Shown here one piece after another: positions 18,955 through 63,996 of a DNA stretch of 64,000 bases. Numbering within the stretch: the stretch's first letter is position 1; each line of letters begins with the position of its first letter. The position numbers and the translations under genes were made by a program. Under the pieces are notes generated by a model that searched no databases, was not told the origin of the DNA, and saw nothing but the letters and a program-made list of their open reading frames with translations. The DNA is from Nitrospinia bacterium (GTDB lineage: Bacteria > Nitrospinota > Nitrospinia > Nitrospinales > JAJDAT01), in NCBI GenBank assembly GCA_029261715.1, contig JAJDAT010000014.1, positions 372,001 to 436,000 of the forward strand, in the 5' to 3' direction.

Positions 18955-19821
18955 TCATCCAACTAACGAATCATAAATTCTTTTTGTTAGTGGAGGTTTA
19001 TCCATTGCGCAACGAAACCCAACATCAATCTTGTAAGAACGTGGATTCATTTTTTCACGGTAAGAAGCTCGAGCCTTTAGCGAAACTATTTTCATATAGT
19101 CTCTTTTTGGAAAATGTCCAACGCCAAAATAAGACAAACCTCTAACAATTGTATATTTTTCTCCATAATCTTTAGATTTGAACTTGTTATCTGGATAAGG
19201 GATATAATAATCCCAAACCCATTCCCATGCATTGCCAATCATGTCGTGAACGCCAAAAGGACTCTTTCCATTCTCATAGCTTCCACGGGGTTTTAATCCT
19301 TGTCCCCTCTTTTTTCTGTTAGATTGGCTTACATTAGCGAAAGAAGCGTCAAAACGATCTCCCCAGGGATAAATTAAGCCATTTGGACCACGAGCGGCTT
19401 TTTCCCATTCTTTTTCTGTAGGAAGTCGTTTGTCAGCCCATTGGGCAAAAGCTGCCGCTTGAAAAAAAGAAATTCCAGTTACAGGGTAATTATCTTTTCC
19501 TTCAGGGTATTTCTCTCCTTTCCAAAACTTTGGCGGCTTACAACCTGTCGCTTGGCAAAAAATATAGTAATCTTTATTGGAAACTTCGTATTTGTCGATG
19601 TAAAACCCTGGTAAGCTAACTTGCCTTTGAGGAGATTCATCTGCAAACCATGGTTTTTCCAACCCCACAGCTAATGCATGCCCTTCTTTATCTATACGAT
19701 CATCTCCCATCACAAAATAACCGCCTGGAATTAAAACCATGCCTTGTGGAGCTGCATCAAATAAACACCCGCCTAACCCAACAGCAACAAAAAGTAAAGC
19801 TAGCGACCTGAGACAATTCAT
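18955..19821 (-). CDS. SUMF1/FGE-fold lipoprotein (non-catalytic type)
   Basis: Exported 288-aa protein made of a lipoprotein signal (MNCLRSLALLFVAVGLGGC, lipobox LGGC) and one formylglycine-generating-enzyme-like domain: VLIPGGYFVMGDD, FYIDKYEVSNKDY, PVTGISFFQAAAFAQWADKR, LPTEKEWEKAARGPNG, YPWGDRFDASFANV and VGFRCAMD. The catalytic C-x4-C pair of true FGE is missing (the segment reads SLKARASYREK), so it is unlikely to activate sulfatases and may be structural or ligand-binding. The ATG at 19821 is chosen; an alternative ATG at 19839 would overlap the divergent ParB-like start. It closely resembles the SUMF1 half of the 28.9-kb fusion protein. Confidence 0.85.
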   Translation of the reverse strand: MNCLRSLALLFVAVGLGGCLFDAAPQGMVLIPGGYFVMGDDRIDKEGHALAVGLEKPWFADESPQRQVSLPGFYIDKYEVSNKDYYIFCQATGCKPPKFWKGEKYPEGKDNYPVTGISFFQAAAFAQWADKRLPTEKEWEKAARGPNGLIYPWGDRFDASFANVSQSNRKKRGQGLKPRGSYENGKSPFGVHDMIGNAWEWVWDYYIPYPDNKFKSKDYGEKYTIVRGLSYFGVGHFPKRDYMKIVSLKARASYREKMNPRSYKIDVGFRCAMDKPPLTKRIYDSLVG

Positions 19822-19837
19822 AATATATTGCCTGACC

Positions 19838-20821
19838 ATGATTAGATTTCTTCCAAAAAATATACAGTGGGTTCCGATTGCTCAAATCTCAAATGACAAT
19901 CTTACTCTTTTCACTCAAACCTATGATTCTTCGGCTTTAACTCAGTCGATCAAAGAACTTGGAATAGCCAATCCACTAATCCTTAAAACTTTAGGCGAAG
20001 ATAAGTTCCAGATTGTTTGCGGTCATCGACGAGCTTATGCCGCAAAAGAACTGAGTTTAGAAACCATTCCTGCCTGGTTTATTTCTGAGAATTCATCAGA
20101 GACCGAACTTATACGCCTAAATTTAATAGAAAACAACCGAACCTACGGCGATATTGAACGCGGGGGTATCATTGCAAAGCTAGTCGATTGTGAAACGCCT
20201 GAAAGCTCTATTATTAAAGAGTATATGCCAATGATAGGCTTGGAAAGAAGTAAAAACTTATTTGATCAATACTTACGTTCTTCGCAATTGGAAGAAGATT
20301 TACAAGAAGTTTTTCATCAGTTAAATGTTCCTATTCGAACATATAACATTTGTTTTTCCTGGACCCCTAATGGCCAAAGAGCTATTAGAGATGTTTTGGC
20401 TAAACTTAAACCAGGAGTGAATAAAGTCCGGTTTTTATTGGAAACAATCGATGAAATAGCGCACAAGGAAGCCATAACGCCTGAAAACGTTTTGTCCAGT
20501 GAAGAAATCTCTAAATTTTTGGAATTTGGGGAAACCGCAGGAATAATTTTCGATAAAACTCAGGAATACCTTTTTAAAAGACGCTTTCCGGAACTAGGCC
20601 AACTAAAAACAAACGTGATTTTGGCAAAAGATAAGTTAAAGCTTAGCGATCAAATAAAAATTAAAACTTCAGATAGCTTTGAAAACGGTGAAATTCGTTT
20701 AGAAATCAAGTTTTCTAAATTAGAAGAGATTCTTAATTATTCAAATAATCTTGCAGAAGTTGCGAAGTCTGAAGAGATGGAAGCATTGATTCATTTGTTT
20801 AAATTAATGGAACGAACCTAA
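19838..20821 (+). CDS. ParB/Srx-fold nuclease-like regulator, orphan
   Basis: A 327-aa protein with an N-terminal ParB-like domain: QWVPIAQI, the SIKELGIANPLILK segment, the core motif CGHRRAYAAKEL (ParB G-x-R-R-x2-A) and LIENNRTYGDIERG. In chromosomal ParB these residues form the CTP-binding fold. The rest has HTH-like helices (LERSKNLFDQYLRSS) and a charged C-terminus with no recognisable dimerisation domain. No parA is adjacent, so a chromosome-segregation role is not supported; it may be a DNA-binding or CTPase regulator. The reading frame is open further left, but ATG 19838 (MIRFLPKN) is the likely start because the upstream part is antisense to the SUMF1 gene. Confidence 0.75.
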   Translation: MIRFLPKNIQWVPIAQISNDNLTLFTQTYDSSALTQSIKELGIANPLILKTLGEDKFQIVCGHRRAYAAKELSLETIPAWFISENSSETELIRLNLIENNRTYGDIERGGIIAKLVDCETPESSIIKEYMPMIGLERSKNLFDQYLRSSQLEEDLQEVFHQLNVPIRTYNICFSWTPNGQRAIRDVLAKLKPGVNKVRFLLETIDEIAHKEAITPENVLSSEEISKFLEFGETAGIIFDKTQEYLFKRRFPELGQLKTNVILAKDKLKLSDQIKIKTSDSFENGEIRLEIKFSKLEEILNYSNNLAEVAKSEEMEALIHLFKLMERT

Positions 20822-26398: not shown

Positions 26399-26734
26399 AT
26401 GAAAAGCGAACAAGTATCATTCAAATGCTCTGAATGTGGCGGTCCTTCAGGTGAACGCCCAACAACGATTGAATATTACGAGCAGGAAATTTTCCTTTTC
26501 GATCCCATTATTTGCGCTAATTGCCTTTTAAAGTTGTGCGAAGAATATGCCGTTCCATGCGCCAATTGCGGGGGCGCCATTCCGCCCTTTTCCCAAGTTG
26601 GAGTGCTTAAAGGAGATTGCGGTGAAAGATTATTTGTTCATATGACAACGGCTTGTAACAGCGTGGGTAGCGCTTTTCATGGTTACTTTGGAAAAGGTGA
26701 GATTCGAAATTTTGTCCAAATTGAAGCGTGTTGA
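26399..26734 (+). CDS. Small zinc-ribbon protein of unknown function
   Basis: 111-aa protein with three CxxC knuckles, FKCSECGG at the N-terminus, IICANCLLKLC and VPCANCGGAI, plus further cysteines (GDCG, TTACNS, IEAC at the very end). Spacing suggests one or two treble-clef/zinc-ribbon metal sites. There is no signal peptide. I do not recognise the family. It leads a same-strand run of Fe-S and redox genes (26.4-30.7 kb), so a role in metal or Fe-S handling is an inference from context. Confidence 0.65.
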   Translation: MKSEQVSFKCSECGGPSGERPTTIEYYEQEIFLFDPIICANCLLKLCEEYAVPCANCGGAIPPFSQVGVLKGDCGERLFVHMTTACNSVGSAFHGYFGKGEIRNFVQIEAC

Positions 26735-26776
26735 TTTCAACAGTTTGGACTATATTATTTGTGGAGGTTTAAATTC

Positions 26777-27076
26777 GTGCCAGAAGTTTCTTTTACTAAT
26801 CAAAATATGAAAATAAACGTTGAACCCGGAACGAATTTACGGGAAGCGGCAATCAAAGAATACATAAGCATTTACCCTCATGTGTTTAAGATTTTGAATT
26901 GTAGGGGTCGAGGTTTGTGCGTTTCTTGCGTTGTGGAAGTTGTTTCTGGAGAGGTAGATCCTCCCAATGAAATTGAATTAGAAAAGCTGAAAAAAAAGCG
27001 CGACAAAAACCCAAATCTACGTTTAGGTTGCCAAATTACCGTGAACTCTGATTTAGAAATAAAAACTCACGTTTAA
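26777..27076 (+). CDS. 2Fe-2S (plant-type) ferredoxin
   Basis: A 99-aa soluble electron carrier. The cluster motif is C-x5-C-x2-C in LNCRGRGLCVSCVV with the fourth ligand in RLGCQI, and the N-terminal NQNMKINVEPGTNLREAA strand-helix is typical of beta-grasp ferredoxins. The GTG at 26777 is preferred as start because GGAGG (26763-26767) lies 9 nt upstream; an in-frame TTG at 26759 has none. It lies between a zinc-ribbon protein and a JAMM protease. Confidence 0.85.
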   Translation: MPEVSFTNQNMKINVEPGTNLREAAIKEYISIYPHVFKILNCRGRGLCVSCVVEVVSGEVDPPNEIELEKLKKKRDKNPNLRLGCQITVNSDLEIKTHV

Positions 27077-27188
27077 ACCGCTAAGAGTAAAAGGTTTTAC
27101 CTGGTATAATTTAAATAAACATTGAAAAAACAAAATAGTTTCTTGTTAGAAACCAATTGACAATCCATGATTGAAATCCCAGAATATT

Positions 27189-27665
27189 ATGAGTCCCTTA
27201 ACTGATGAAAATTTAAAAACCATTAGGGAACACGCCGTTAAGGAATATCCATACGAGTGTTGCGGGATTGTTTTGGGGAAAGTAGATACTGCTGACGAAA
27301 ATATACTGTACCGTTGCGAGAATATTCAAAACCGTTTGCATGAAAAAGATCCTGAGACATTCACTAGAGACGCTCGAACGGCATTTTATATAGATCCTAA
27401 AGAACTAATGGGCATCTTAAAAGACGCTCAAGACAAGAAGCTTGAAATCAAGGTCTTTTATCATTCTCATCCGGAGCATGACGCTTATTTTTCGGAAGAA
27501 GATAAACGAATGGCCTTGTTTGACGGAGACCCTTTGTATCCCAACGCGGATTACCTGGTTGTTTCGGTATGCGACCAAAAGGTAAAAAGGGAAGTTTTGT
27601 TTTCATGGAATACCGACGCAAAAGAATTTACCGAAAAACAGGAAAGTATGTTAATTCAATCCTGA
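27189..27665 (+). CDS. JAMM/MPN+ metalloprotease (Mec-like)
   Basis: 158-aa zinc metallopeptidase of the JAB1/MPN family. All ligand/catalytic residues are visible when starting at ATG 27189: Glu23 in YECCGIVLG and H92-x-H94-x10-D105 in YHSHPEHDAYFSEED. Bacterial relatives remove residues from the C-terminus of ubiquitin-like sulfur carriers (ThiS/MoaD/CysO-like) in cysteine, cofactor or tRNA thiolation pathways. No sulfur carrier or ThiF-type E1 is next to it here; the neighbours are ferredoxins and an NFU scaffold. The TTG at 27171 is an alternative start with no better ribosome-binding site. Confidence 0.85.
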   Translation: MSPLTDENLKTIREHAVKEYPYECCGIVLGKVDTADENILYRCENIQNRLHEKDPETFTRDARTAFYIDPKELMGILKDAQDKKLEIKVFYHSHPEHDAYFSEEDKRMALFDGDPLYPNADYLVVSVCDQKVKREVLFSWNTDAKEFTEKQESMLIQS

Positions 27666-27676
27666 TTTTTTGTTGA

Positions 27677-27961
<285 letters not shown>

Positions 27962-27981
27962 ACTCGAAAAAAGGAAATTTC

Positions 27982-28203
27982 ATGAGAGAGGATGTCGAAG
28001 AAGTATTGGAAACACTACGCCCGTCTTTGCTAGCTGACGGAGGTAACGTTGAACTTGTTGATATTGACGATGGCGTAGTTAAGTTGCGCCTTATTGGCGC
28101 TTGCGCTTCTTGTTCAAGTTCAATGATGACTTTAAAAATGGGAATCGAAAAATCACTTAAAAAAGCGGTTCCTATGGTTAGGTGTGTGGAACAAGTCGAA
28201 TAA
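27982..28203 (+). CDS. NFU-type Fe-S scaffold (NifU C-terminal domain)
   Basis: 73-aa protein equal to the NifU C-terminal/NFU domain: [27 protein letters not shown] and the cluster-binding C-x2-C in [18 protein letters not shown]. It assembles or delivers 4Fe-4S clusters. AAGGAAATTTC precedes the ATG at 27982 and it is 20 bp after the YfhL ferredoxin stop, so the two are probably co-transcribed and this scaffold may load the ferredoxin. Confidence 0.93.
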
Positions 28204-28248
28204 TTTCCACAAAAATTCGGTTCCTCAGTTTTTAAATTAAATATTCTA

Positions 28249-28857
28249 TTGAAATTGAAACTCAAGAAATTTTCAAAACTCTTTTCTTTACTCGTCCTTT
28301 TTACCCTTTTGTCATTTGTTAATATTGGGGAGGTCTGTGCATCTCAAAAGGGTGACATAGCTCCAGATTTTGTCTTGAAATCCCTGAATGGGTCCAAAGT
28401 AAGCCTCAGCGACTTTAAAGGCCGCTATGTTTTGGTTAATTTTTGGGCCACCTGGTGTATTCCTTGCAAAATGGAAATGCCCTCCCTAGAGGAACTGCAC
28501 AAACGCTTCCCAAATGAAAAGCTAGCTGTTCTGCCCATTTCAAACGATATGTTTGGAGAAAAGGTTGTTCGCCCCTATGTAGAAGCGAACGATTTTTCTT
28601 TTACTATATTATTCGATCCTACTTTAAAAGTAAGCAACCGTTACGGAGTAGTCACCCTACCCACAACGTTCTTGATCGATCAAGACGGAATGATCATTGG
28701 AGTTTTAGAGGGCGCCGAAGACTGGGCAAAACCAGAAACGTTCCTTTATTTCGAAGAATTATTAAAGAAGTTAGAAACTCCCTCAACCGACTCCAAACCT
28801 CAAAGAAAACCGATAAAAAGAGAATCGGAAATACTCGATTTCCCTCTGGACGGTTAG
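28249..28857 (+). CDS. TlpA/ResA-like periplasmic thioredoxin
   Basis: 202-aa exported thiol-disulfide reductase. The signal peptide KFSKLFSLLVLFTLLSFVNIGEVCA is followed by a TlpA domain with redox motif C70-I-P-C73 in NFWATWCIPCKMEMPSLEE, and the cis-proline segment VTLPTTFLIDQDG. A basic, disordered tail follows residue 178. The start is TTG (28249, or 28255 two codons on). It lies 40 bp upstream of a protein with a CcdA-type membrane domain, the usual source of electrons for such thioredoxins, so they probably form a periplasmic reducing pathway. Confidence 0.9.
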   Translation: MKLKLKKFSKLFSLLVLFTLLSFVNIGEVCASQKGDIAPDFVLKSLNGSKVSLSDFKGRYVLVNFWATWCIPCKMEMPSLEELHKRFPNEKLAVLPISNDMFGEKVVRPYVEANDFSFTILFDPTLKVSNRYGVVTLPTTFLIDQDGMIIGVLEGAEDWAKPETFLYFEELLKKLETPSTDSKPQRKPIKRESEILDFPLDG

Positions 28858-28897
28858 TCAACTAGATTCCAAAAATTACCAAAATTTTTCTTGGGGT

Positions 28898-30715
28898 ATG
28901 AATATTTTAATTTCTCGCGGTTATAGAACACATACGCGAATCAATTCGCTATTTATCATTGCCTTAGTTTTTTGCGCTTTACTTCTAAATCCTTTTCATT
29001 CTTTTGGGCAAAGTGACTCCCCAACTACGGCTGACAATCAATGGGAAGCCGACATGGTTTGGGTTCCACCTGGAAGTTTCCAATTCGGTACTAATCGAAT
29101 AGATGAGGAAGGCGAAGCTCTTTCCATTGGAATTCCAAAACCCTGGTTCGCAGACGAAACTCCAGAGAGAGCTGTATTTCTGAAAGGGTTTTATATCGAC
29201 CGTTATGAAGTGACAAACCGTAGATATAAAATCTTTATAGATAATACCGGAGCTCCCGCTCCAGGCTATTGGGAAAATGGACAAATTCCACAGGACAAAG
29301 AAGACTACCCCGTAACCTGGGTTAATTGGTTTGACGCAGTTAACTTTTGTGAATGGGCTGGAAAAACGCTGCCAACAGAAAAAGAGTGGGAACGAACCGC
29401 TAAAGGTACAAAAGGAACCGACTACCCTTGGGGCAAAGAATTTAAAGCTGAAAACGCAAACTTAACGGTAAAGGCTGGTGGAAAAAATGGAGTCTTAGCG
29501 GTTGGTTCTTTTCCAATGGGCGCAAGCTCTGAAGGCGTTCAAGACTTAATCGGTAATGTATGGGAATGGACTGCCGCCGATTATGCTCCTTATCCTGGAA
29601 ATACTTATAAAAGCTCTCAATTCGAAACAGGGTCTAAAACGCTTCGTGGAGCGTCCGTGGCCTATATTGGTCATTTTCCCGGAAGCTTATATTTAGCGGC
29701 CCTAAAAAAAATGGCCCGAAATGGTTTTCGACAACCTGCATCTCCAGACGACGGCGCGGAGGATGTTGGGTTTCGTTGTTCCTCCAAAACTAAACCAGCT
29801 TTATTTGGTTCTCTTTCAAAGAGCGCTCAATCTCAGGCTCTAAAACAACCTACAGGATTATTTACGGATTCTTCAACTGGAACAACATCCAGTTCTACTA
29901 AAAGTTCTGGGGTGAGTTTAGGACAAAATCCTTTTGAAGCTCAGCCAACCCTTCCTCAATCTGGAACTTTAATTTTAATCGTTTTATCCTTCATTGCCGG
30001 GTTAATGAGTTTCCTATCTCCTTGCACTCTTCCGATTTTACCTGCTTATTTTGCGGTTACGGCTCAAGCTGAACGCACTCGGGTCAGCTTTATGGCTATT
30101 GCGTTTTTCTGCGGATTGGCGTCAGTTTTTGTCCTGATGGGCGCTTCCGCTAGCTTTTTCGGCCAATTTCTACGAGATTATATTTTCTCGTTAACTACGG
30201 TAGGCGGTATTTTTGTGGCTGTTTTTGGCGTTATGACCATTTTTGGACAAGGGTTTTCTGGAGCTAATTTTCAGACTCAACCTGCAAGAACTTTTGTTGG
30301 CTCCTTTTTATTTGGGGCCGCCTTTGCTTTAGGTTGGACCCCATGTGTTGGTCCTGTTCTATCTGGAATTTTAATTTTAGCCGCATCAGATAAAACTATT
30401 TTTCAAGGTATGAGCCTTTTGTTTTTCTATGCTGCAGGTTTGGGATTACCTTTAATTCTAATTGCGGCTTTTTTTGGAAACCTCAGAAAGGACAGTTTAT
30501 TTTGGAGAATATTAAGAGGCCGGGGTTGGGATATAAATATTGCGGGAAAAACCATTATTCTACATTCTACTAACGTTTTTAGCGGACTCCTGTTAGCGGC
30601 TTTAGGTACCGCTTTAGCTATGGGATATCTTACCTATCTTAACAGTCTTATCCCCATAGAACTGCAAGTGTGGTTTAGCGAGTTAGAAGAAAGTTTATTA
30701 AAATCCTTTATGTAA
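28898..30715 (+). CDS. SUMF1-CcdA fusion: periplasmic FGE-like domain joined to a DsbD-type membrane domain
   Basis: 605-aa fusion. Residues 1-38 are a signal or anchor (LFIIALVFCALLLNPFHSFG). Residues about 50-300 form a SUMF1 domain (MVWVPPGSFQFGTNRID, FYIDRYEVTNRRY, LPTEKEWERTAKG, EDVGFRC). A Ser/Thr-rich linker (about 305-350) leads to a CcdA/DsbD six-helix domain (about 352-600) with the two redox cysteines in FLSPCTLPILPAYFA and GWTPCVGPVLSGIL. CcdA carries electrons across the inner membrane to periplasmic thioredoxins such as the TlpA encoded just upstream. The SUMF1 part lacks the FGE C-x4-C pair. I know of no characterised protein with this order. Confidence 0.88.
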   Translation: MNILISRGYRTHTRINSLFIIALVFCALLLNPFHSFGQSDSPTTADNQWEADMVWVPPGSFQFGTNRIDEEGEALSIGIPKPWFADETPERAVFLKGFYIDRYEVTNRRYKIFIDNTGAPAPGYWENGQIPQDKEDYPVTWVNWFDAVNFCEWAGKTLPTEKEWERTAKGTKGTDYPWGKEFKAENANLTVKAGGKNGVLAVGSFPMGASSEGVQDLIGNVWEWTAADYAPYPGNTYKSSQFETGSKTLRGASVAYIGHFPGSLYLAALKKMARNGFRQPASPDDGAEDVGFRCSSKTKPALFGSLSKSAQSQALKQPTGLFTDSSTGTTSSSTKSSGVSLGQNPFEAQPTLPQSGTLILIVLSFIAGLMSFLSPCTLPILPAYFAVTAQAERTRVSFMAIAFFCGLASVFVLMGASASFFGQFLRDYIFSLTTVGGIFVAVFGVMTIFGQGFSGANFQTQPARTFVGSFLFGAAFALGWTPCVGPVLSGILILAASDKTIFQGMSLLFFYAAGLGLPLILIAAFFGNLRKDSLFWRILRGRGWDINIAGKTIILHSTNVFSGLLLAALGTALAMGYLTYLNSLIPIELQVWFSELEESLLKSFM

Positions 30716-30882: not shown

Positions 30883-31368
30883 ATGAAAAAATTGACTGCC
30901 TTTTGTCTAGTATTCATATTCTTCACCGCATCCTGTTCAGGTGTAAATTCCGTTGTCAAGAAACGCTGGAAAAACTCGGAAAACACTATAGCAATAATGG
31001 ATATGACTTCGAACGGAGATGAATTAATGAATGCCGGAGCGCAATTACATAGAGCTCTTGAAGAATCGTTATTAAAAACGAACTTTGTTGTCGGCTCTTC
31101 TGACGAATCCACGCATTACAAATTAAAATACAAAGTAATCGAATTTGATCATGGTAGTAGAGTAAAAAGGTTTGCAGCTTTAGGAGTTTTATCGAAATCT
31201 GGCCAAGCTAATGTGAAGGTTAAAGCAGCTCTGTTCACCAAAGATAAACTGGTAGGGCGCTGGGATGTCGAAAGCTGGTTAAACGATGGTTTTTTAGGAG
31301 GTAGCTCGAACGCTATTTTCAATAAAGCCGCTGAAGAAATTGTCGACCACCTTAAGGGAGACTACTAA
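30883..31368 (+). CDS. DUF4410-like lipoprotein
   Basis: 161-aa exported protein: lipoprotein signal MKKLTAFCLVFIFFTASC (lipobox TASC, Cys18) followed by a mixed alpha/beta domain with TIAIMDMTSNGDELMNAGAQ, YKLKYKVIEFDHGSRVKRFA and GGSSNAIFNKAAEEIVDHL. The EFD.GSR segment and the GG(S) late motif resemble DUF4410 proteins, whose function is unknown. It is monocistronic with a strong terminator downstream. Family assignment is by eye. Confidence 0.65.
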   Translation: MKKLTAFCLVFIFFTASCSGVNSVVKKRWKNSENTIAIMDMTSNGDELMNAGAQLHRALEESLLKTNFVVGSSDESTHYKLKYKVIEFDHGSRVKRFAALGVLSKSGQANVKVKAALFTKDKLVGRWDVESWLNDGFLGGSSNAIFNKAAEEIVDHLKGDY

Positions 31369-61512: not shown

Positions 61513-63996
61513 ATGAACTCTTTAGCTAGATTATTCACCTATTCAATTTTATTATGCTTTTTTTGTTTTATTGAAATTGCAGGAGGATTAAAAGCTTCAT
61601 TTGCCGAAGACGTTTCTCTATTTTTATCATCCATTCCAAATTTAAGCGAAGATAAAATAAACCTAAGTAAAACCTTATTAGCTGTTTCAAAAGATTGGAA
61701 TAAAAATGTCGACGAAGTTTTCTTTAAAACTTCTATTGAAGCCTTAGTAGAAGAAGTTAATAAGAACATTCAAAATAGTTCGAAACCTTCAGAAATTGTA
61801 ACCGCGTTAAGAGAAGTCATACACAAAAAATTCGGTTATCGATACACAGATCAACTAGACCCACAAGGGATTCCCCTCAATCCAAACGAACTGTTTTTAC
61901 ATGGACTACTTGAAACTCAAAAAGGTTATTGTATGACCTTGTCGCTCATTTATTTAATAGCGGCCGAATATTTAGAAAAACCCATTTTTGGCGTCGCGTT
62001 GCCTAATCATTTTTTTGCGCGCTACGATTCAAAAGATTCCCATATCAATATAGAAGCAACCGAAGGAGGAATACCCCTTCCAGATAGTTATTATTACGAT
62101 CGCTTTGGAGTTGAAAAAAATTCTTCTTTTTTTATGAAAAGTCTGAACAAAAAACAAACTCTAGGAGCTTATTTTTCGAATGTAGGAATGGCTTATTACA
62201 AACAAAATCTTCCTAAAAAAGCAGTATTTTATTTAGATCTTGCCACCCAAATAAATCCTCTTTCGGTCGAAGCTCGTAATAATTTAGGAAACATTTATTC
62301 TGAATTAAAAGAATTCAAAAATGCAATTAAACAATATGAAGCAGCCTCCAACGCGGATCCGAACAATCTAGCGACCCTTTTTAATTTAGGAATTGCCTAC
62401 TCCGATTCTGGAGAAAAAAAGGGAGCCGCCGAGGCCTTCATGCAAGTCATTCAGATTGATCCCAATTATGTTCCAGCCCATCGATATCTAGTTAAAATCT
62501 TTATTGATCAAAGCAATTTTATTGGAGCTCTTCTACATTTAAAACAAATTTCTAAGCGACAAAAAAATAATCCCGAAATTTCTCTAACGATAGCCGAAGT
62601 TTACTTTCAACTTAAAAATTATGAAATGGCTTTACAAACTTTAAAGAAAATAGAATCGTCCTTTCCAGATAATCCAAAATTTAAAGAAAAGTTGGCCGAA
62701 GCCTTTTACCGTCTGGAAAAATTTGACGAAGCGATATCTCAATATCGTTATTTAATTGAAATGAAACCGAATAATTTAAGATCCTACGTTCAATTAGGCT
62801 GGACTTATTATCGTAAGGGGGAAATCGATTTGGCTATTGGCTGGACTAAACGCGGCCTAAAAGATAGTCCCGAGCCTGATAAGTTAAAAACTCTAGGTCG
62901 CATGAATCTTGGTTTTTATAACGTTCTCGACGAACAATTTGAAGAAGCTCAAAATTGGTATAAAAAGACGTTGTCCGCAAAAAATTCAAACTTATTGGAA
63001 GGTATGGTGGGCGACCTAACTGAGGCCCAGGACAAATTCCCTAATTTAATGGAAATATACTTTTTTAAAGGTTGGCTATACAAAGAATCGCAAAAAGATG
63101 AGAAAGCCGCCGAATTTTTAAAAAAATATTTGGCTAAAGCTCCAAACGGAAAAATGGCAAAAGCCGCTAAAAACGCCCTTAAAGAGTTGGGTATAGCCGT
63201 AAATATCGACAACCTCAATGAAAAATCAGAAGCAGGAATGATTCTTATCCCCTCTGGGTTTTTCTTAATGGGTTCTGACGATAAAGGAAGTGACGAGAGC
63301 CCCAAGCACAAAGTATTTCTAGACTCATATTTTATTGATCAATTCGAAGCAAGCGCTGAGGAATTCGCCATATTTTTGAACCAATCTCCCGACCCAAGTA
63401 GATATTATAAAGATAATAAATATGGGACCTTAGATTTTGGCAAAAAATTTAAACCTAGAGAAGGATTTGAAAACTTTCCTATTAATAACGTAACTTGGTT
63501 TGGGGCCAAAGCTTTTTGCCAATTTAACGATAAGAGACTCCCTACGGAAGCCGAATGGGAAAAAGCCGCTAGAGGAGTTGACGGAAGAAGATACCCCTGG
63601 GGAGATACACAACCAACTCCCTCAATCGCCCGTTTTAATCAACAATGGGACGAAAAAAGACTGAACGCTATGGTCTCAGTAGATTCTATGTCTGGCGGTA
63701 AAAGCCCCTTTGGGCTAGAGCAAATGGCGGGGAATATTAAAGAATGGGTAGACGATTGGTACGATGGAGAGTATTATACGGATTACAAACACCAAATAAA
63801 TCCAAAAGGCCCTTTTGGGGGCGAGTTTAAAGTATTAAAAGGAGGATCCTGGCACGATTTAATGAGTTTTCTTTATTCTTCCTTTCGGAATAATAGTGCG
63901 CCTTCCATAGGGCTTGAAGACTATGGGTTTCGTTGCGCAAAGAGTAAAGAAAAAGGACCAGCTCCCAAGAAATTAATCAGGTGGCAAAATAATTAA
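61513..63996 (+). CDS. Transglutaminase-like/TPR/SUMF1 multidomain exported protein
   Basis: 827 aa. The signal peptide (residues about 8-31, FTYSILLCFFCFIEIAGGL) leads to a SirB1/transglutaminase-like domain (about 60-200) with Cys140 in QKGYCMTLSLIYLIA, His166 in LPNHFFARYD and Glu181 in NIEATEGG. About nine TPR repeats follow (residues about 215-560: YYKQNLPKKAVFYLDLATQI, LGNIYSELKEFKNAIKQYEA), then a SUMF1 domain (about 573-815: MILIPSGFFLMGSDDKGSDE, LPTEAEWEKAARGVDG, YGFRCAK) without the FGE C-x4-C. It probably serves as a periplasmic scaffold or peptidase-like protein. Start ATG 61513; the gene ends 4 bp before the window edge. Confidence 0.85.
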   Translation: MNSLARLFTYSILLCFFCFIEIAGGLKASFAEDVSLFLSSIPNLSEDKINLSKTLLAVSKDWNKNVDEVFFKTSIEALVEEVNKNIQNSSKPSEIVTALREVIHKKFGYRYTDQLDPQGIPLNPNELFLHGLLETQKGYCMTLSLIYLIAAEYLEKPIFGVALPNHFFARYDSKDSHINIEATEGGIPLPDSYYYDRFGVEKNSSFFMKSLNKKQTLGAYFSNVGMAYYKQNLPKKAVFYLDLATQINPLSVEARNNLGNIYSELKEFKNAIKQYEAASNADPNNLATLFNLGIAYSDSGEKKGAAEAFMQVIQIDPNYVPAHRYLVKIFIDQSNFIGALLHLKQISKRQKNNPEISLTIAEVYFQLKNYEMALQTLKKIESSFPDNPKFKEKLAEAFYRLEKFDEAISQYRYLIEMKPNNLRSYVQLGWTYYRKGEIDLAIGWTKRGLKDSPEPDKLKTLGRMNLGFYNVLDEQFEEAQNWYKKTLSAKNSNLLEGMVGDLTEAQDKFPNLMEIYFFKGWLYKESQKDEKAAEFLKKYLAKAPNGKMAKAAKNALKELGIAVNIDNLNEKSEAGMILIPSGFFLMGSDDKGSDESPKHKVFLDSYFIDQFEASAEEFAIFLNQSPDPSRYYKDNKYGTLDFGKKFKPREGFENFPINNVTWFGAKAFCQFNDKRLPTEAEWEKAARGVDGRRYPWGDTQPTPSIARFNQQWDEKRLNAMVSVDSMSGGKSPFGLEQMAGNIKEWVDDWYDGEYYTDYKHQINPKGPFGGEFKVLKGGSWHDLMSFLYSSFRNNSAPSIGLEDYGFRCAKSKEKGPAPKKLIRWQNN

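Follow-up and report, generated by a model that had tools for sequence, protein, structure and literature searches.

A SUMF1 domain fused to a CcdA-type electron conduit across the order of Nitrospina, with a possible docking role

The window analysed here, a 64,000-nucleotide stretch of a Nitrospinia bacterium genome (GCA_029261715.1, contig JAJDAT010000014.1, positions 372,001 to 436,000), carries two separate forward-strand genes between positions 28249 and 30715, as delineated by ORF calling: one for a TlpA-like thioredoxin and, 40 bp after its stop codon, one for a protein in which a SUMF1 domain precedes a CcdA domain (Table 1). An earlier note on this DNA had described such a fusion beside a TlpA thioredoxin, and Pfam recovered both of its domains, confirming that description. 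The upstream product combines an AhpC-TSA/Redoxin fold with a WCxxC motif and a leader; it reached no NCBIfam cut-off (ResA, 119 of 170 bits), and therefore we give it no equivalog name. Both genes belong to a same-strand run in which a cysteine-rich protein, a 2Fe-2S protein, a JAB protein, a YfhL ferredoxin and a NifU-like protein come before TlpA and the fusion, and a DUF4410-like lipoprotein comes after them. The NifU-like gene lies between the ferredoxin and TlpA in all 52 loci that hold the three genes. Order-wide, the part of the run at window positions 26399-30715 (+) follows MreB and brings iron-sulfur proteins (2Fe-2S, YfhL ferredoxin, NifU-like) and the JAB protein together with the TlpA-CcdA thiol pair; it may represent a single cofactor-maturation operon.

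Table 1 Genes of the locus and features of the fusion protein, in window coordinates.
Feature	Position	Strand	Basis
Free SUMF1 lipoprotein, closest relative of the fused head in its own genome	18955..19839	-	Sequence search, tree
Cysteine-rich protein	26399..26734	+	ORF; no family match in Pfam/NCBIfam
[2Fe-2S] ferredoxin-like protein	26759..27076	+	ORF, Pfam
JAB-domain protein	27171..27665	+	ORF, Pfam
YfhL-type 2x[4Fe-4S] ferredoxin	27683..27961	+	ORF; NF033683 above cut-off
Small NifU-C-terminal-like protein, 73 aa	27982..28203	+	Named by eye from sequence
TlpA/ResA-like exported thioredoxin, 202 aa, WCIPC	28249..28857	+	ORF, Pfam, hydropathy
SUMF1-CcdA fusion gene, 605 aa	28898..30715	+	ORF, Pfam, order-wide conservation
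Signal peptide / N-terminal membrane helix, residues 1-33, core 15-33	28898..28996	+	Hydropathy; 3 K/R before core, none after
SUMF1 (FGE-sulfatase) domain, residues 51-294	29048..29779	+	Pfam; pLDDT mostly 80-95; PDB fold matches 47-301
Cys151	29348..29350	+	Invariant in fusions; Ala in 11/12 free sister paralogues
Gly258-His259-Phe260, motif GHF[P], within an insert	29669..29677	+	Alignment
Cys294 (GFRC), invariant	29777..29779	+	Alignment
Low-complexity variable tether, residues 301-352, conserved NPF..LP end	29798..29953	+	Alignment; pLDDT under 50 at 307-344
CcdA (DsbD_TM) domain, residues 353-605, six membrane helices	29954..30712	+	Pfam, PDB 5vkv match, hydropathy, model
Cys376, redox cysteine of helix 1 (SPCTLP)	30023..30025	+	56/56
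Cys483, redox cysteine of helix 4 (TPCVGP)	30344..30346	+	56/56
Predicted beta hairpin, residues 543-556, between helices 5 and 6, inferred cytosolic	30524..30565	+	Model, loop charge
DUF4410-like lipoprotein	30883..31368	+	Below Pfam cut-off; kept downstream in 49/59 loci

Both domain assignments are well above threshold. The SUMF1 domain (FGE-sulfatase, PF03781) was matched over residues 51-294 with E = 6.2e-45 (154.3 bits against a gathering score of 23.3), and DsbD_TM (PF02683) over residues 359-536 with E = 1.5e-17 (64.0 bits against 27.1); the CcdA part also aligned with the solved CcdA of PDB 5vkv (E = 5.7e-23), a structure from which the region of the 543-556 hairpin is mostly absent. 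The stretch joining the domains (residues 298-354) varies from 47 to 66 aa across the family. Four cysteines are conserved, C151, C294, C376 and C483, each in all 56 full-length sequences, and the last two are the CcdA redox cysteines that the earlier note had seen retained. At residue 526 of helix 5 (window 30473-30475, +), 48 of the 56 proteins have a third membrane cysteine, where the window protein has Phe. Hydropathy, model helices and loop charges together predict six membrane helices with the N-end outside. Net loop charges were +2.1 for TM3-4, +3.4 for TM5-6 and -2.9 for the C-terminus, and a strongly hydrophobic 12-mer occurs in 54 of 55 fusion N-termini, which resemble signal peptides; a prediction that places both the N- and C-ends outside fits these loop charges and hydrophobic leaders. 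The orientation supposed earlier, with SUMF1 facing the periplasm, is thus also the predicted one, given the signal peptide and the positive cytosolic loops. The AlphaFold2 model of the fusion (mean pLDDT 75.6, under 50 in the tether) provides no trusted placement of the head relative to CcdA (pTM 0.49), and the fold comparisons reported below (Foldseek/VIA) span residues 47-301, the CcdA part having been compared by sequence.

Across the order, a marine one that includes the nitrite oxidiser Nitrospina, a CcdA part was found in 60 of 64 genomes, and all 60 are the fusion: 56 full-length copies, three cut by a contig end with both domains in frame (G019, G023 and G044) and one broken copy (G053), whose frame break falls inside SUMF1, away from the junction. 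The 56-row alignment omits these last four, and the four genomes without a CcdA match (G027, G035, G039 and G058) are 57-83% complete. SUMF1 and CcdA share a single open frame in 59 of the 60 CcdA-bearing genomes, so homologues within the order are not split; consistent splitting was what the earlier note had named as damaging to its reading. The search for the same domain order that it recommended returned SUMF1-CcdA across the order, with relatives 57-63% identical over nearly the full length, and a scan of named genomes gave one matching locus, in a Nitrospinae MAG. In 57 of 59 loci the fusion is preceded by TlpA on its own strand; in the remaining two it begins at a contig edge. At least 98% identity was reached by 112 of 253 CcdA columns and 63 of 252 SUMF1 columns in the order-wide alignment, and none of the 60 genomes has lost the head while keeping CcdA. 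A sequencing-induced fusion, through a missed stop codon near 29.8-29.95 kb, is ruled out: there is no such stop, and the same architecture recurs in frame order-wide. Order-wide synteny and conserved CcdA columns show that the fusion is real and more than a chance event, and it is both order-wide and ancient.

The modelled head adopts the FGE fold, with Z = 24.9 and an rmsd of 3.1 over 228 aligned residues to human FGE (8aru); Z is about 25 to human FGE, CalU17 and EgtB alike. The nearest solved folds include ToxD, CalU17, EgtB and PvdO, and GldK/PorK and variable lectin-like proteins are also among its structural neighbours. As the earlier note had observed, the catalytic, copper-binding cysteine pair of FGE is absent from the head, at what we take to be its positions in the alignment: the only cysteines of the domain are C151 and C294 (56/56), which align with two cysteines of human SUMF2 (ayCaw, GFRC), itself an FGE paralogue. 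FGE activity of the head was rejected, as it lacks the catalytic cysteines. The fusion also fell well short of the curated cut-offs of NCBIfam models (EgtB 97/360, PvdO 33/500, GldK 47/350, SenA 92/420, OvoA 45/400 bits). A role in binding metal for the thiol pathway, which had been put forward from the letters of the window, was not borne out: besides lacking the FGE-type pair, the head has H259 as its single invariant histidine, and it showed no metal site specific to the fusion. That the domain may position a substrate, the other possibility raised there, is still plausible.

A tree of 65 SUMF1 rows groups its 15 fused heads in a single clade (100/99); sister to them stands a clade of 12 free proteins (100/99; joint node 99/96), among them the lipoprotein at 18955-19839. 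The GHF insert, presumably close to the place of the FGE catalytic cysteines, is common to both clades. Every fusion has C151, 11 of the 12 free sisters have Ala there, and C294 is kept in the free clade. The genome is rich in SUMF1: the fusion query gave 34 matches in it, all limited to the SUMF1 part except the fusion itself.

Of 31 genomes of the order searched for PF02683, 30 encode one such protein each, and that protein is the fusion (the two hits in G023 are pieces on two contigs). CcmH was detected by Pfam in 19 of 21 genomes of the order and ResB in none of the 21, the control search having recovered it from 5 of 14 known genomes; System II cytochrome c maturation was rejected on that absence. 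System I is present in this genome, with CcmF and CcmH recognised by Pfam and CcmE, A, B and C by eye. The ccm operons of this genome and of a second one (G002) encode a CcmG-like thioredoxin, CcmF, CcmH and others, with no CcdA in either of these two loci, and the window TlpA shares 41% identity with the CcmG-like thioredoxin. The usual CcmH motif is of the LRCxxC form; CcmH of this genome (locus L152, 9016-9525, -) has CKCDDKC. Reviews (PMC3601427, PMC4460558) credit DsbD or CcdA with keeping CcmG in its reduced state and assign the two soluble domains of DsbD to the periplasm; PMC3884852 gives CcdA six helices.

Considering that 30 of the 31 genomes searched yielded the fusion as their sole DsbD/CcdA-family protein, that System I is present and that two ccm loci lack CcdA, the fusion very likely supplies all periplasmic thiol reductant, including what TlpA and cytochrome c maturation draw on. 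By homology, an electron path can safely be proposed. Judging from the family, a cytosolic thioredoxin would pass electrons to CcdA, and C376 and C483 would relay them to exported thioredoxins, namely the TlpA next door and the CcmG-like protein encoded with the ccm genes. With no other DsbD/CcdA-family protein found in these genomes, the fusion should serve System I cytochrome c maturation as well as any other periplasmic thiol repair. The electron path from CcdA to TlpA that had been expected at the outset is in keeping with the invariant redox cysteines, the adjoining WCxPC thioredoxin and the genome's sole CcdA.

Compared with known systems, the fusion resembles DsbD in build, a membrane electron conduit whose first helix follows a folded domain in the periplasm, and DsbD is described in the literature as reducing CcmG-type thioredoxins. 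Unlike DsbD, however, its head is SUMF1 rather than DsbD-alpha, it lacks the C-terminal thioredoxin (gamma) and it has six helices instead of eight: Pfam found neither alpha nor gamma domains in the fusion, which ends after helix 6 and scores 37.8 of 330 bits with NF001419. It resembles CcdA (5vkv; PF02683) in its above-cut-off DsbD_TM match, its cysteines in helices 1 and 4, its six helices and its TlpA/ResA-like neighbour, but differs from 5vkv by the SUMF1 head, the long tether and the predicted hairpin insert between helices 5 and 6. The head shares the FGE fold with SUMF2/pFGE, CalU17, ToxD and GldK/PorK, and with SUMF2 also the C151/C294-type positions and the lack of a catalytic pair, whereas it stands apart from these proteins in being tethered to a membrane electron conduit and in having the GHF insert. 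TsoB (NF045694, a rhodanese/DsbD fusion-like selenoprotein, named in a table of PMC13188914) likewise joins a DsbD-type conduit to a foreign domain, and fusion residues 316-531 match its model (E = 9.5e-15); the rhodanese domain and selenocysteines are nevertheless TsoB's own, and at 54 of 805 bits the fusion is not a member.

Outside the order, the same CcdA occurs at 60% identity in a family of another order of the same class (f7) as a free protein of 310 and 309 aa with its own leader, and in one of these genomes TlpA, a multihaem cytochrome and a methyltransferase are encoded alongside it on the same strand. Since that CcdA is free and has its own leader, we infer that the ancestor of the order acquired SUMF1 between the leader and the first membrane helix; the headless form also implies that the basic reaction can proceed without the head. 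Full-length matches to the fusion were absent outside the order among the 387 genomes searched, and in the other genomes reached at E <= 1e-60 (G067, G069, G135, G245 and G276) the matches were limited to the CcdA part. SUMF1 was found at none of 70 CcdA loci checked outside the order, out of 134 match rows from 457 genomes (297 + 80 + 80, of which 160 were already within the 387); the other rows were assessed from their frame length alone, and the G245 frame, within the 297-genome set, runs past the contig end so that its N-terminus is not covered. SUMF1 was also absent at 18 further loci, nearly all long frames, and at L121, L058 and L149, while the positive controls (L066, L070) were detected. 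Most long frames outside the order resemble DsbD or a CcdA-thioredoxin protein, with a CxxC that follows the membrane part. The fusion is therefore as unusual as had been supposed, with no SUMF1-CcdA elsewhere among the genomes examined.

Three genomes of another phylum (G604, 649-aa frame; G607 and G407, 582) have extended CcdA proteins of the same subfamily over the full length (46-48% identity), each with a helical N-terminal domain that gave no Pfam match above cut-off. In contrast to the fusion, their head is alpha/alpha-barrel-like and akin to the C-terminal half of the DUF255-type thioredoxin adjoining G604; the G604 head matches the C-terminal alpha/alpha domain of that exported neighbour with E = 1e-13. 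At locus L187 (3640-7299, -), an exported DUF255-type thioredoxin (WCYWC) neighbours a CcdA whose fused domain is a related alpha/alpha one. The hairpin-bearing CcdA subfamily (L058, L059, L151, L158-L160, L230) is present in Nitrospinota and at least two lineages outside it; F535, W536, G541, H556 and T558 are invariant in its 55-row alignment, and the predicted hairpin that it carries between helices 5 and 6 may offer the cytosolic donor a different place to dock.

What, then, might the head contribute? It would occupy the place of the DsbD alpha domain, exported, before helix 1 and on a flexible tether, and could act as a docking or client-binding module that holds partner thioredoxins or unfolded clients close to the conduit. 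We consider such a role the most likely one because of the DsbD-alpha-like place, the tether, the dead active site, how strictly the head is retained and the comparable head seen in another phylum, and we give about an even chance to the whole reading, in which a CcdA-type conduit carries a periplasmic head that is not catalytic but docks partners or clients. Distance matrices from 28 genomes gave partial correlations of 0.36 for SUMF1-CcdA, 0.51 for CcdA-DUF4410 and 0.43 for SUMF1-DUF4410; against the docking reading, TlpA-SUMF1 coupling beyond the other operon genes was not found in this test (-0.06). Also against it, the head evolves much faster than CcdA and at the pace of TlpA (mean distances 0.59, 0.34 and 0.58 for head, CcdA and TlpA), and the untrusted placement of the head in the model and the headless CcdA of the sister order count on the same side. 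The distances of the DUF4410-like lipoprotein (30883-31368, +) track CcdA over the other operon genes (0.51). This tracking, the lipoprotein nature of the nearest paralogue and the GldK/PorK and lectin-like neighbours would also suit a head that serves as an anchor or spacer outside thiol chemistry, binding cell wall, glycan, an outer-membrane protein or a structural complex in the manner of GldK/PorK. However, the GldK score is far from its cut-off, no binding site was identified in the head, and adjacency alone could yield the DUF4410 correlation, leaving this explanation unlikely.

Slightly less probable still is that the head keeps another enzyme activity, such as that of a PvdO-like oxidase/dehydrogenase or CalU17/ToxD-type chemistry, and draws on the CcdA thiol supply. 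The closest solved folds and the invariant GHF insert point in that direction, but every NCBIfam enzyme model scored far below its cut-off, the FGE-type pair is missing beside a lone invariant His, and GHF[P] is shared with a free sister clade that lacks CcdA. The chain position of the head and the invariance of C151 and C294, with C151 replaced by Ala in most free sisters that keep C294, could instead suggest a redox relay like DsbD-alpha, in which a switchable C151-C294 disulfide would take electrons from TlpA or CcdA and pass them to clients. Yet the same two positions are cysteines in human SUMF2 and many free SUMF1 proteins, such SUMF2-type positions form a buried structural disulfide, and the pair lies 143 residues apart with no CxxC; we regard the relay as improbable, a shade more so than the enzyme. 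The unfused CcdA of the sister order, with its own leader, would be compatible with neutral accretion, a duplicated SUMF1 gene having become stuck between leader and CcdA and been kept as harmless, but the many near-invariant SUMF1 columns and the absence of head loss make this very hard to credit.

Searches of open-licence literature returned no report linking a SUMF1 domain to DsbD/CcdA thiol transfer, nor any on SUMF1 in Nitrospinae or on an exported protein joining FGE with a thioredoxin; the one paper that came up on formylglycine generation and Nitrospina concerns death domains. The SUMF1-CcdA fusion is apparently undescribed. We show here a separate, order-wide conduit fusion involving a domain that the literature searched had not connected with thiol transfer. 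Nitrite oxidisers depend on cytochromes for their living, and with no other conduit of this kind found in the genomes of the order, the fusion should feed those cytochromes. DsbD is the known case of a CcdA-like core whose range widened through added periplasmic domains, as Katzen et al. are said to have reported in 2002. A broader proposal, to which we assign a low probability, is that the hairpin CcdA subfamily acts as a platform with exchangeable periplasmic heads (SUMF1 in the order of Nitrospina, an alpha/alpha domain in another phylum) that choose the thioredoxin or client receiving electrons, with the invariant C151/C294 pair as a relay in the SUMF1 form, which would make it a second and independent invention of the DsbD plan. 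The fusion makes testable both the capacities of a dead SUMF1 domain and whether heads steer periplasmic reductant. A further SUMF1 fusion lies in the same window (61513-63996, +), an 827-aa protein with a transglutaminase-like N-terminal part and TPR repeats, recognised by eye, and a C-terminal SUMF1 domain.
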